NCBI RefSeq assembly: GCF_007741475.1
Contig: NZ_CP036261.1
Span: forward strand, 1,860,001 to 1,924,000
DNA from: Rosistilla ulvae
GTDB taxonomy: Bacteria > Planctomycetota > Planctomycetia > Pirellulales > Pirellulaceae
Direction of reading: 5' to 3'
DNA length: 64,000 nucleotides
In this document: piece after piece, positions 26,920-43,574 of the stretch
How the letters are laid out: each line of letters opens with the position of its first letter
Position numbering within the stretch: position 1 is the first letter of the stretch
Notes under the pieces: generated by a model
The model's database searches: none
Seen by the model: the letters and a program-made list of their open reading frames with translations, nothing else
Told to the model about the DNA's origin: nothing
Position numbers and translations under genes: made by a program

Positions 26920-27002
26920 CGTTTAGTCGCGTGCCGCCCGTTGAACGGCCAGTTCCCATCGTCGGAAGTCACGCGGGGCGTTGCCCACGCGGTTAAACGA
27001 TT
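26920..27002. repeat. Solitary REP-pair remnant related to the 41.5-43.6 kb arrays
   Basis: The right arm at about 26970-27000 (GCGGGGCGTTGCCCACGCG, then GTTAAACGAT) is identical in its core to the right arms of the large arrays. A degraded left arm (CGTTTAGTCGCGTGCCGCCC, from about 26920) lies upstream in opposite orientation, with a much shorter interior. It occupies most of the 284-base gap between the SGNH and HEAT-like genes. Confidence 0.75.
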
Positions 27003-29862: not shown

Positions 29863-29922
29863 ACCGCCGCGGGCAATCGGATCGATCGTCTGGCGTTTAC
29901 CACCAATGCCGTTCAACGAAGC

Positions 29923-29942
29923 GTAGTGGACGAGGTTACGAG
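29923..29942. repeat. Left arm of a palindrome split by the IS element
   Basis: GTAGTGGACGAGGTTACGAG at 29923-29942, continued after the element by TCC (31497-31499), forms a 23-base arm. It is perfectly complementary to 31523-31545. Confidence 0.8.
29932..29942. repeat. Left 11-bp target-site duplication of the IS4 element
   Basis: GAGGTTACGAG directly abuts the left inverted repeat and is repeated exactly at 31486-31496, next to the right inverted repeat. Confidence 0.92.
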
Positions 29943-31485
29943 CTGTCGATTACCCACAAGTCATTGGTCTGGTCCGAAGGCTTGCCAGCAGAGGGCGAAG
30001 TCGAGCATTCGCCGCGTGCCTCGCCAGATCACTTCGGCTCCCGGCGGACCGTCGCCTTCGCGGTGATTGTAGCCGCCAAGGGTCGCAAGGACCGGGATGA
30101 ATTGTGACAGCTCAGGAGCTTGCTTTGGGGGAGCCGTCTTTTCCACCACTTTCCAGACCGACTTCCATTCCGCTTCGCTGAAGACGACATCACAGGGAAG
30201 CTCTGGACACTCGCGGCCTAAGAAGGTCACAAACATGATCCGCCATGCGATCACTTTGTAAAACATCAACGCGCGGATCAGTCGGTCTCTCGCTTCGAGT
30301 TGAATCTCTTCGACCCGGCAGCCAGTTTTGAAAACTCGAAAGAATACTTCGATTGGCCAACGAGCCACATACAAATCCACAATCCGCAGCGTCTGGGAAA
30401 TCGTGTCGACCGGCAGAGAACTCAGTAACAGCCAGTCGACTTCGGTTCCGTCGCCTGGGCCATCGATCTCGCTCACCCAAACGACACTGATCTCGACCGG
30501 CGGCATCGAAGACTGCTTGTTGTGTGGCGCACGAAGAGTCATCCGCTTCGCTCGAATTTCTAACTTCGCAGTGCGTGCTTCACGGCCGGGGTGTTGTTTG
30601 TTTCCTGATCCTTTGGTTCGCTCGGGCGTTTGGGGAAGCTGGACTTCGCGGTAAGCGACCGGCTGGGCGGATGCGATTTCGGCACGCATTTTCTTATAAG
30701 CCGCAGGCCCGCCATCGGGGTCTTTCTCCGGCAACGAGCGTTTTCGCTGCGAGCGAATGACGAACTGAGCCGGTGTTTCATGCTGATCGGCTTCGACGAA
30801 AATGTCGTAGATGTCTCCTTCGCGATCGGCCAGCGAAACGATCTGAGTTTCAGGACATTTTCCGGCGATCTCGCAGGCCTTGCGGTAACCATCGAGCCAT
30901 CGTTGCCCTTCGCCGGTGTGTAGGGGTTGGCCTTCTCGCTTCTTGCTGGTGCCGAGCGCTTCTTTGTCGCGATCGTAGAACTTAACACCGACCACCCCGA
31001 GACAAAGTTTCTCCGGCGTGAAGGCGATGTGGGAATGATCGTAAAGTCCACGGCGGCCTAAGCGATCGAGATTGCGGACGCCTTCGGGCGGATGCGCGGT
31101 GTAGTCCAGTTCGGTGGTATCTTGTGCGATGCAAACGGTGTCTTGGGCTTTGATTCGTTGGAGTGTCTTTTCAGCGTGAGCCCCGAGAATGGCTTCGGGA
31201 TCGACGTTGGGGTTATCCAATAGACGGTAGGCGGCTTTGGTTTCGTCCCAGCCACTGCAAGCTTCGTTGATACTGGCCGAAGGGTTGGCCGCCAGCGAGG
31301 CGAGCAACGCTTCGGCTCGATCGTTGAGACGTTTGTCTCCAAGTTGAATATCTTGAAATTCGTATGCGATACTGGTCGGTTGCATGCTTTCACCTTGAGA
31401 TTTCATTGTGCAAAATGAAATACTACAAGCGCAAATACCGTGCCAAAACGAGCTATTTTTGCGGCGACTTGTGGGTAATCAACAG
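29943..31485 (-). mobile_element. Complete IS4-family insertion sequence, 1543 bp
   Basis: Ends are 19-base inverted repeats: CTGTCGATTACCCACAAGT at 29943-29961 and ACTTGTGGGTAATCAACAG at 31467-31485, matching at 18 of 19 positions as inverted copies. Flanks are an exact 11-base direct repeat. A single transposase gene on the minus strand fills the element, with its stop codon touching the left repeat. The intact open frame and perfect target duplication point to a recent, possibly still mobile insertion. Confidence 0.93.
29961..31406 (-). CDS. IS4-family transposase (Tn5/IS50-like)
   Basis: 481 residues catalysing cut-and-paste transposition with a DDE active site: Asp96 (IAQDTTELDY), Asp194 (SLADREGDIYD) and Glu353. 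The IS4-defining Y-x2-R-x3-E-x6-K signature is exact at Tyr346, Arg349, Glu353 and Lys360 (YVARWPIEVFFRVFK). The N-terminus has the Tn5-like LGDKRLNDRAEALL block and CSGWDETKAAYRLLDNP. The C-terminal part (QFIPVLATLGGYN) is also typical of Tn5-type proteins. Length is close to Tn5 transposase (476). ATG 31406 is used; a second ATG lies at 31385. The frame is intact, so the enzyme is probably functional. Confidence 0.95.
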   Translation of the reverse strand: MKSQGESMQPTSIAYEFQDIQLGDKRLNDRAEALLASLAANPSASINEACSGWDETKAAYRLLDNPNVDPEAILGAHAEKTLQRIKAQDTVCIAQDTTELDYTAHPPEGVRNLDRLGRRGLYDHSHIAFTPEKLCLGVVGVKFYDRDKEALGTSKKREGQPLHTGEGQRWLDGYRKACEIAGKCPETQIVSLADREGDIYDIFVEADQHETPAQFVIRSQRKRSLPEKDPDGGPAAYKKMRAEIASAQPVAYREVQLPQTPERTKGSGNKQHPGREARTAKLEIRAKRMTLRAPHNKQSSMPPVEISVVWVSEIDGPGDGTEVDWLLLSSLPVDTISQTLRIVDLYVARWPIEVFFRVFKTGCRVEEIQLEARDRLIRALMFYKVIAWRIMFVTFLGRECPELPCDVVFSEAEWKSVWKVVEKTAPPKQAPELSQFIPVLATLGGYNHREGDGPPGAEVIWRGTRRMLDFALCWQAFGPDQ

Positions 31486-31496
31486 GAGGTTACGAG
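31486..31496. repeat. Right 11-bp target-site duplication of the IS4 element
   Basis: GAGGTTACGAG, identical to 29932-29942, immediately outside the right inverted repeat. Confidence 0.92.
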
Positions 31497-31545
31497 TCCT
31501 TTTGCATCAGGCCAAATCGCTGGGACTCGTAACCTCGTCCACTAC
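31497..31545. repeat. Remainder of the interrupted palindrome
   Basis: TCC (31497-31499) completes the left arm begun at 29923. A 23-base loop follows, then the right arm GGACTCGTAACC...CCACTAC at 31523-31545. Before insertion the locus was a 23-bp perfect stem, possibly a terminator for the esterase gene or the sialidase-like gene, or a dispersed palindromic repeat. Confidence 0.75.
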
Positions 31546-41508: not shown

Positions 41509-42095
41509 TCGTTTAACCGCGGCCCATCGGGCCGCGCGTTTGTGTGTGGCGTGTTATGTGTTGCCCGAGTTGTTGATGGTGCGTTGCGCTTGGACGCGCG
41601 GGGCGTTGCCCACGCGGTTAAACGATTGGGATGAGGCCGCTTCGTTTAACCGCGTGCCCATCGGGCCGCGCGTTTGTGCGGCGTGTTATGTGTTGCCCGA
41701 GTTGTTGATGGTGCGTTGCGCTTGGACGCGCGGGGCGTTGCCCACGCGGTTAAACGATTGGGATGAGGCCGCTTCGTTTAACCGCGTGCCCATCGGGCCG
41801 CGCGTTTGTGTGGCGTGTTATGTGTTGCCCGAGTTGTTGATGGTGCGTTGCGCTTGGACGCGCGGGGCGTTGCCCACGCGGTTAAACGATTGGGATGAGG
41901 CCGCTTCGTTTAACCGCGTGCCCATCGGGCCGCGCGTTTGTGCGGCGTGTTATGTGTTGCCCGAGTTGTTGATGGTGCGTTGCGCTTGGACGCGCGGGGC
42001 GTTGCCCACGCGGTTAAACGATTGGGATGAGGCCGCTTCGTTTAACCGCGTGCCCATCGGGCCGCGCGTTTGTTGCCCCTGCGGTTAAACGATTG
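41509..42095. repeat. REP-pair (REPIN-like) array 1, left of the tyrosine transposase
   Basis: Units repeat every 132 bases (left arms begin at 41509, 41642, 41774, 41906 and 42038). Each has a left arm CGTTTAACCGCGTGCCCATC then GGGCCGCGCG, about 55 bases of interior, and an inverted right arm CGCGCGGGGCGTTGCCCACG then CGGTTAAACGAT. The first four units are nearly identical. The fifth (42038-42095) has lost its interior, so the arms almost touch. Each arm folds as a G/C hairpin with a one-base bulge. The array ends about 6 bases from the stop codon of the transposase. Open frames through the array come from the 132-base period being divisible by three. Confidence 0.9.
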
Positions 42096-42101
42096 CCTGC
42101 G

Positions 42102-42716
42102 TTAGTGATACGTAGTCCATCCGGCCTCCAAACCTGCAAATGGTGTTACAAACTTCCAGGTTTGCTTTTTCTTTCCCTCCTTGATCGGGTTCTCCAGCAC
42201 GTATGCAATCGCATCTTCGATCTCCTGCTCGGACTCTAGGAAACCGCGATACGATTTCGTATTCCATGGAGTAGGAGTGTTACCGTCGTGGCGTTTGTAG
42301 TCTGCCAGCGGATGAAGTGAGGACTGATTGAGCGATTTCGTCGCTTCACCTTTGAGAAGCCCGGCAATGTATTCCACCTTGAAACGGTGGCGGGCGATGA
42401 CGAGATGGACGTGCTGAGGCAGAATTGAGCAGGCCCAAATCGTGAAGCGACTCTTATCAATCGCAACCCCAAAACCTTCTGCGACAGCCATCGCTTGTTG
42501 TCCCGACAAGATGACCTCGGGGTATTTCAATTTTGCCTTCGTTTGGTGCTGCCACCGACGTTGTGGCTGGGTTAGTTCCGTACGCTCGATCTTATTCGTC
42601 AAAGACCCCATGCGATACAGTTCCCAGGCCGCAACAAATTCCGACCAAGACCCGCGTTGGTCATTCGGGAGCCAAAAAACATACGTGCCGAAAACAACAT
42701 GATATCCGTGTACCAT
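42102..42716 (-). CDS. REP-associated tyrosine transposase (RAYT, IS200/Y1-like)
   Basis: 204 residues from ATG 42716, chosen because AGGGGA lies eight bases upstream and the family motif starts at once (YHVVFGTYVFWLPNDQRGSW); frames to 42734 and 42824 add non-family residues. The Y1/HUH nuclease features are seen: the metal-binding His-hydrophobic-His in LPQHVHLVIARH (about residue 105) and the helix with the candidate catalytic Tyr in DAIAYVLENPIKEG near the C-terminus. Such enzymes cut and rejoin single-stranded REP hairpins. Supporting this, the gene is bounded on both sides by arrays of paired hairpins. Its start is about 160 bases from array 2 and its stop adjoins array 1. It is not part of an operon. 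Confidence 0.86.
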   Translation of the reverse strand: MVHGYHVVFGTYVFWLPNDQRGSWSEFVAAWELYRMGSLTNKIERTELTQPQRRWQHQTKAKLKYPEVILSGQQAMAVAEGFGVAIDKSRFTIWACSILPQHVHLVIARHRFKVEYIAGLLKGEATKSLNQSSLHPLADYKRHDGNTPTPWNTKSYRGFLESEQEIEDAIAYVLENPIKEGKKKQTWKFVTPFAGLEAGWTTYH

Positions 42717-42875
42717 GCGAAACGTCCCCTGCATTCGCGTTGAGACACACTTCGCGTCCGACGACGGCAGAACAAAAGGTTGTTTCACGTGTCTCGATGC
42801 TTGTAATTGTAGCGCGCCTAGCAATGGGTAGCTACGACAAGGAGTGCTGTTTGTGTGAACATGCAGTCGCTAGGT

Positions 42876-43574
42876 GGGACGCGCGGGGCGTTGCCCTCGC
42901 GGTTAAACGATTGGGATGAGGCCTTGCTTCGTTTAACCGCGTGCCCATCGGGCCGCGCGTTAGTGTGTGGCGTCGCGTGGAGCCCGAGCTGTTGATGGTG
43001 CGTTGTGCATGGACGCGCGGGGCGTTGCCCTCGCGGTTAAACGATTGCGATGGGGCTCGCTTCGTTTAACCGCGTGCCCATCGGGCCGCGCGTTAGTGTG
43101 TGGCGTCGCGTGTGACCCGCGTTGTTGATGGCGCGTTGCGTTTGGACGCGCGGGGCGTTGCCCGCGCGGTTAAACGATTGGGATGAGGCCGCTTCGGTTA
43201 ACCGCGTGCCCATCGGGCCGCGCGTTTGTGTGGCGTGTTATGTGTGGCCCGAGTTGTTGATGGTGCGTTGTGCTTGGACGCGCGGGGCGTTGCCCTCGCG
43301 GTTAAACGATTGTGATGGGGCCGCTTCGTTTAACCGCGTGCCCATCGGGCCGCGCGTTTGTGCGGCGTGTTATGTGTGGCCCGAGCTGTTGATGGCGCGT
43401 TGAGCTTGGACGCGCGGGGCGTTGCCCTCGCGGTTAAACGATTGCGATGGGACGCTTCGTTTAACCGCGTGCCCATCGGGCCGCGCGTTTGTGTGGCGTG
43501 TTATGTGTGGCCCGAGTTGTTGATGGCGCGTTGTGTTTGGACGCGCGGGGCGTTGCCCACGCGGTTAAACGATT
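42876..43574. repeat. REP-pair (REPIN-like) array 2, right of the tyrosine transposase
   Basis: The array begins with an unpaired right arm (42876-42912), then five pairs with left arms starting at about 42929, 43062, 43194, 43326 and 43457 (spacings 133, 132, 132, 131). Arms match array 1 except the bulged base of the right arm, which is T or G in several copies (GCCCTCGCG, GCCCGCGCG) where array 1 has A. One left arm reads TCGGTTAACCG. The interior is more diverged between units than in array 1. The array ends 16 bases before the next gene's stop. The 160 bases between it and the transposase start show nothing else. Confidence 0.9.

Follow-up and report, generated by a model that had tools for sequence, protein, structure and literature searches.

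Tandem clusters of REPINs with flanking sequence, three adjoining RAYT genes, have been described for P. fluorescens SBW25 in the accessible part of PMC3116915. According to the excerpted text of PMC8266576, TnpA-REP cuts single-stranded REPs near the foot, and changes in the foot of one REPtron shifted the cut predictably. In IS608, ISDra2 and one REPtron, a tetranucleotide 5' of the hairpin picks the cleavage dinucleotide by base complementarity, and the GTAG foot of E. coli TnpA-REP was described as crucial, with no change being tolerated (same excerpts of PMC8266576). For class 2, the accessible passages of PMC6006769 give L, V, I, F, Y or M as the middle residue of the HuH motif; TnpA-Y1 class 3, known there from Planctomycetes, Acidobacteria and Proteobacteria, carries Y....Q and a CnGA foot.

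The window, i.e. the 64,000-nt stretch of DNA that was analysed, lies in a genome consisting of one 7.48-Mb contig (G000). Two arrays of paired hairpins and a HUH/Y1 gene had been reported from this stretch by the initial annotation, and all three were found in their place. The arrays contain 20 arms plus one truncated arm, arranged as tandem inverted pairs around the gene of a 204-aa HUH/Y1 protein. The features were located as follows:

41509-42092, no strand: left tandem array, made up of four complete REPINs plus a fifth whose right arm is truncated
41509-41625, 41642-41757, 41774-41889 and 41906-42021, no strand: full pairs of the left array (arm positions)
42038-42092, no strand: fifth unit of the left array, left arm intact, right arm truncated
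41626-41641, no strand: linker of 16 nt between two REPIN units, recurring along the left array
41642-41673, plus strand: example of arm A, foot TCGTTTAAC and bulged hairpin with GCCC-ATC-GGGC core
41726-41757, minus strand: example of arm B, foot TCGTTTAAC and bulged hairpin with GGGC-AAC-GCCC core
42102-42716, minus strand: window-type RAYT gene, 204 aa, HVH at residues 102-104, catalytic Tyr172 assigned from the motif
42879-42910, minus strand: lone arm B upstream of the RAYT gene, enclosing the gene together with the arm A at 42038
42929-43572, no strand: right tandem array, made up of five complete REPINs
42929-43044, 43062-43177, 43194-43309, 43326-43441 and 43457-43572, no strand: full pairs of the right array (arm positions)
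26969-27000, minus strand: isolated arm B away from the arrays, from the arm search of the window

Including the lone right arm (arm B), the right array spans 42879-43572. The arrays take up the gap between the convergent ORF stop codons 41490 and 43590 and are thus extragenic. The core GCGGTTAAACGA was present without any change at 20 of the 21 arm places and with one change at the remaining place. When two mismatches were allowed, 30 places were found in the whole window; 100 shuffled sequences gave 5.8 on average and 11 at most. The start-to-start spacing inside the arrays was 131 to 134 nt. Two details of the initial annotation had to be adjusted. The distance between the stop codon of the gene and the array was 9 bases instead of about 6. 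Five units had been counted on each side; the left side has four and a truncated one and the right side five and a half. Units 2 to 4 of the left array were 99 to 100% identical to each other, and unit 1 was 97 to 98% identical to them, while the units of the right array shared 77 to 94% identity. Because of the near identity of units 2 to 4, the sequence fits a recent amplification or homogenisation of most of the left array.

As single-stranded DNA, a single window arm was predicted to fold into a bulged hairpin with an unpaired foot. The folding energies of two single arms were -9.5 and -8.7 kcal/mol (z of -1.8 and -1.5), which is a modest gain over shuffled sequences. The whole arm pair at 41642-41757 folded strongly, with a z of -3.8 and none of 200 shuffles folding equally well. 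In some relatives the hairpin of the single arm was weak (z of -0.7 and 0.4).

Two checks named together with the initial annotation, a search for arms elsewhere in the genome and a count of paired versus single arms, were carried out on G000. The core CGCGGTTAAACGA, with at most one mismatch, occurred at 193 + 180 places, and its reversed control at 6 + 2. A fuller arm pattern matched 119 + 120 places (239), while its control matched none. The 1.06 Mb surrounding the window contained 78 arms, grouped into 20 clusters, when at most 9 mismatches of 32 were allowed; the reversed-sequence control gave 0 matches at 8 mismatches and 2 at 10. In this sample 64 of the 78 arms belonged to outward-facing pairs, and in all 32 of these pairs arm A was joined with arm B. 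The spacers varied from locus to locus, and so did the length of the linker (about 8 to 34 nt). The window-type RAYT was present in G000 as one copy.

The window locus is very probably a RAYT-REPIN system of planctomycete type, and the initial annotation, which had proposed such a system, is supported by the presence of arms throughout the genome and by their tracking of the RAYT among 48 chosen family genomes. Judged from sequence, this reading draws on genome-wide arms, the A + B pairs of the sample, arms which follow the RAYT, and a foot and hairpin which follow its lineage. The substrates would be REP arms with an unpaired foot (TCGTTTAAC in the window lineage) followed by a short bulged hairpin, and the unit, the REPIN, would consist of two different arms, A and B, with their feet outward. 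By analogy with the biochemistry of TnpA-REP, the RAYT would nick single-stranded DNA near the feet and move or copy REPINs in trans. A second, local step would give the tandem arrays: the REPIN would be repeated along with a little of its flank, through slippage, unequal recombination or strand transfer of the RAYT itself. REPINs can persist where the RAYT is absent.

Two genomes of the same genus, the close relative G006 and G072, both assembled as single contigs, were compared with G000. The window-type RAYT was not found in either genome by a profile search at E ≤ 0.001. G006 contained about 200 arms; 24 of 38 sampled arms were paired, and 11 of 12 pairs were of type A + B. When the samples of G000 and G006 were aligned, stretches longer than 1500 nt added up to 632 kb with a mean identity of 92%, compared with the 99 to 100% among units 2 to 4 of the left array. 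At the window locus G006 had one REPIN where G000 has the array, and in G072 neither a REPIN nor shared downstream sequence was found in the 5.2 kb compared. Ten loci were bracketed by aligned flanks in the samples of both genomes; 9 of the 20 G000 clusters could not be bracketed. Arm numbers were equal at five of the ten loci and differed at the other five, the direction of change not being polarised. More arms were detected in G000 at the window locus (20, compared with 1, or 2 by eye, in G006), at 1335565 (10 and 2) and at 1554851 (12 and 3), and more in G006 at 1356881 (5 in G000, 6 in G006) and at 1708930 (1 and 2), the latter being bracketed with G006 1656422. At none of the ten loci were arms present in G000 but absent from G006, and two lone degenerate G006 arms (9 mismatches) had no G000 counterpart above the cut-off. 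REPINs would be mobile by analogy with the known systems; the ten bracketed loci gave no present/absent site with intact arms. Decay of arms in the RAYT-less G006 was considered as well. Arms with at most 3 mismatches to the consensus made up 64 of 78 in G000 and 24 of 38 in G006 (P of 0.037), but P rose to 0.16 once the window arrays were left out, and therefore no decay is claimed.

Instead of general recombination, the RAYT itself could have built the arrays, by excising single strands and transferring them repeatedly at neighbouring feet. Both RAYTs found in G000 sit inside tandem REPIN arrays, the window linker appears by inspection to combine parts of the two flanks that the REPIN has in G006, and the three largest differences in arm number (20 vs 1, 10 vs 2 and 12 vs 3) favour the RAYT-bearing genome. 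However, only three bracketed loci were larger in G000, two being larger in G006 and five equal, tandem arrays also occurred in the RAYT-less G006, the linker length differed between loci, and slippage predicts the same picture. An origin of the arrays from the RAYT is thus considered rather unlikely. The initial annotation had called the local amplification unusual, and this does not hold, since P. fluorescens SBW25 is described as having tandem clusters of REPINs next to RAYT genes (accessible part of PMC3116915), so that the local array is the part of the system which was already known. When feet within 1 kb were counted, 20 of 58 loci had at least four on a single side and 5 had at least six, the window being included and some sequences being counted twice.

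Two further observations were made on the G000 and G006 samples. At G000 C1:1714731 the collinearity with G006 stopped about 15 nt or less from a REPIN, and for this reason breakpoints of rearrangements may be marked by REPINs. Positions 29904-31545 of the window contain an insertion sequence, presumably IS4-like, whose open frame has 505 codons. Nine ends of this element were found in the two samples taken together; four of them were flanked by GGTTAAAC, and two further, orthologous ends by ATTTAACCG or GTTTAACCG, so that the element may target REP feet. The window copy was not at a foot.

Arms around relatives of the window protein started with TCGTTTAAC or GTTTAGC. A search of genome contigs with the single protein found no relatives; a profile search yielded 377, of which the best 80 were analysed. 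Except for one Vicinamibacteraceae MAG, these 80 were titled planctomycetes, three of them as the anammox genus Kuenenia. To count 6-mers with no prior motif, 70 loci were used (10 of the 80 with short flanks were left out) and compared with control sequence 600 to 1300 nt away. Among the most enriched 6-mers, CGTTTA was repeated beside the gene at 44 loci and in 2 controls, GTTTAA at 35 and 2, TTTAAC at 34 and 2, TCGTTT at 38 and 7, and TTTAGC at 26 and 0; the count is not fully independent, as several of the 80 loci have the same sequences as members of the discovery set. A TTTAAC or TTTAGC foot was present at 63 of the best 80 loci, and 17 remained unlabelled. Five of these 17 (L289, L302, L300, L286 and L268) were inspected, and all had arm pairs with variant feet. 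At L302 (around 1260-2091), the arms beside a window-type RAYT start with GTGTAGC, which stands between TTTAGC and the canonical GTAG foot.

The initial annotation had described a HUH/Y1 protein of 204 residues; its HVH occupies residues 102 to 104, and Tyr172 lies within YVLENP. In the comparison with known RAYTs, likewise named as a check, the protein showed the class 2 signature Y...NP, and the NCBIfam RAYT model NF047646 matched all 15 aligned members at E below 0.001. The window protein reached 42 bits with this model, under the curated cut-off of 80, and is therefore assigned to an outlying branch, neither a standard RAYT nor an equivalog. Among 107 rows of window-type members, Y...NP was present in 102 and LPND near the N-terminus in 96. 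The middle residue of HuH was Val in 52 rows, Thr in 39, Ala in 4 and Ile in 3, while the pattern found none in 9. By analogy with the biochemistry of TnpA-REP, this RAYT-type protein would act as a Y1 nuclease on single strands and cleave its repeats. Membership in TnpA-Y1 class 3 was rejected because this class needs Y....Q and a CnGA foot, whereas the window type has Y...NP and TTTARC.

An autonomous insertion sequence of the IS200/IS605 type, with its subterminal hairpins tandemly duplicated and the genome-wide arms being MITEs, was considered as well. With the AlphaFold model of the window protein (mean pLDDT of 83), Foldseek returned IS200/IS605 transposases, those of ISDra2 and IS608 (best match 2xm3 at 8.8e-6) ranking ahead of E. 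coli TnpA-REP (4er8 at 1.8e-4); the protein thus has a Y1 fold, as expected of a RAYT. The IS200 model also matched 11 of the 15 members, and one genome, G345, had five profile matches. Nevertheless, this explanation is improbable. The window protein scored 42 bits with the RAYT model compared with 23 bits with the IS200 model, and its family carries Y...NP instead of the Y...Q of class 1, to which it was thus not assigned. Moreover, G000 has one such copy, most matching family genomes have one match each, and of the 58 labelled loci with flanks of 1 kb, 55 had feet on either side of the gene.

For the RAYT-REPIN reading, the association between arms and gene was determined in the family. The window protein was searched in 149 family genomes and matched 30 at E ≤ 0.001, 17 of them at E < 1e-30, including G136, in which the gene is interrupted. 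Arms were counted in 48 genomes chosen from the 149 (matches and some non-matches), a genome being positive with at least 10 hits of two patterns summed. The initial annotation had named as a check whether the arms follow the transposase. Of the 16 genomes whose window-type RAYT is intact, 15 had arms, compared with 7 of the 32 others (Fisher P of 2e-6 for the 48 chosen genomes), and 25 of these 32 had no arms. G135 had an intact gene and no excess of arms. The seven arm-positive genomes without an intact window-type gene were G006, G072, G014, G016, G003, G015 and G009, of which G006, G014 and G016 contained 190 to 250 arms. Five of the seven are assembled in 280 to 710 contigs, so that a gene flanked by repeats may have escaped detection; in the fragmented assemblies of G014 and G016 the gene may thus lie in a gap between repeats.

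The hairpin of the G000 type was found 239, 196 and 27 times in the three genomes of the window genus, 1 to 12 times in five genomes and not at all in 40. The AGCCG type occurred 0 to 1 times in the window genus and 12 to 424 times in 13 of the remaining 15 genomes that have an intact gene. In genus g51, TCG-type heads numbered 9 in the genome with the intact gene and 19 in a relative with a broken gene, while the other arm count was 12 and 0, respectively. The hairpin type thus goes with the RAYT lineage. The nearest relative of the window protein (L255, 62% identity) belongs to a MAG titled Fuerstiella from another family, for which binning errors are possible; its gene is accompanied on one side by two tandem REPINs, whose arms show the A and B hairpins of the window. 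That the arms are host repeats such as terminators or supercoiling sites, amplified by recombination beside a transposase that is adjacent by chance, is highly improbable: the arms remain in the RAYT-less G006 and G072, and recombination or slippage alone would suffice for the growth of arrays, but the foot was recovered beside window-type RAYTs of many planctomycete lineages, the hairpin type follows the RAYT lineage, and most sampled genomes without the intact gene (25 of 32) lack arms.

RAYTs scoring higher with NF047646 were also collected from the same phylum, giving 30 loci whose tags were assigned by inspection. Inverted pairs tagged with GTAG were present at 9 loci (L218-L221, L223, L224, L226, L227 and L233) and pairs with a GGGTG tag at 3 (L234, L235 and L237); 6 had other inverted pairs, and at 12 none were found. 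A second RAYT of G000 (L245, C1:764451-764918) scored 82.7 bits, over the NCBIfam cut-off of 80, and was located between tandem arrays of paired palindromes with a period of about 151 and the tag GGGTGGCAC. The planctomycete RAYTs with the GGGTG tag (L234, L235, L237 and L245) may represent another group without GTAG; in the tree of 78 rows, the three of them that were included did not form one clade. For this tree, 5 partial or duplicate proteins were removed and feet were labelled by inspection, with E. coli GTAG taken from the literature, L203 (CTTAGC) counted as TTTAGC and L237 (GGGTGCC) as GGGTGG. A branch with a support of 100/100 parted 33 rows of the higher-scoring RAYTs, E. coli RayT included, from the rest, and the 16 TTTAAC rows grouped as a single clade (99/99). 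A quick, larger tree of 109 rows did not unite the TTTAAC rows in this way; a branch with an SH-aLRT of 98 held 36 TTTAGC rows, 11 unlabelled rows and no TTTAAC, and the foot needed 3 changes among the 89 foot-labelled rows. Residues splitting TTTAAC from TTTAGC RAYTs (e.g. at positions 43, 51, 52 and 168) are confounded with the clade split and were set aside.

Window-type REPs do not carry the GT[AG]G foot of the canonical subclasses. By these sequence comparisons, what is new is the foot, TTTAAC or TTTAGC in place of GTAG, together with the RAYT branch. The non-GTAG foot, which the initial annotation had not recognised, is the most novel. No earlier description of the TTTAAC/TTTAGC foot was met in the RAYT, REPIN and planctomycete literature outside figures, supplements and most subscription texts, and the letters TTTAAC were absent from the REP/RAYT papers among the matches listed.

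Sequence conservation dropped sharply outside of T-C/T-G-TTTAAC. At the REP boundary the last conserved base outward is position -3, and the fourth base of the foot is A (TTAA) or G (TTAG). At position -3 from TTTARC, the base was T at 44 of the 52 loci with TTTAAC and C at 23 of the 37 with TTTAGC; Fisher values for this comparison ignore relatedness, and a tree-aware test has no power as there were only 2 to 3 independent changes of the foot. The -3 base matches the prediction of A-T/G-C pairing, while the base at -2, mostly C, misfits a simple TT/CT cleavage rule. It is conceivable, although doubtful, that the foot is a guide to the cleavage site which was switched in nature. If so, RAYTs would have been retargeted naturally in planctomycetes, with foot, boundary and protein co-evolving from a GTAG-like foot.

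Planctomycete RAYTs with TTAG/TTAA feet beside GTAG RAYTs of the same phylum would provide a natural series for studying REP recognition and the choice of the cut. With the RAYT present in one of three genomes, one genus offers a natural comparison for asking if REPINs decay or cease amplifying when the RAYT is absent.

With the REPINs of P. fluorescens SBW25, as far as described in the accessible part of PMC3116915, the window locus shares the unit of two inverted REPs and the tandem clusters; it differs in its foot, in having two distinct arm types and in the position of the RAYT within an array of 20 arms. The GTAG and CGTC REP super-families are likewise short tagged palindromes, often in dimers or clusters, with planctomycete hosts, whereas the window repeats carry neither tag. 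In the excerpts of that source (PMC3733652) the CGTC repeats were reported to be unassociated with transposase genes, while the window repeats are associated with one. TnpA-Y1 class 3, in the accessible passages of PMC6006769, resembles the window type in phylum, atypical foot and repeats that can be high-copy, and is set apart by Y....Q and CnGA in place of Y...NP and TTTARC. The REPtrons of E. coli, Stenotrophomonas and Marinomonas (excerpts of PMC8266576 and PMC6006769) also have a low-copy Y1 HUH nuclease with Y...NP and flanking REPs of foot plus hairpin dispersed in the genome, with a bulged stem like that of the E. coli REP. In comparison with the GTAG REPtrons of these sources, the window type has the foot TTTAAC or TTTAGC and lies on the other side of the 100/100 branch. 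LPND (96/107) and Thr as the HuH middle residue (39/107) further distinguish the window type from REPtrons.
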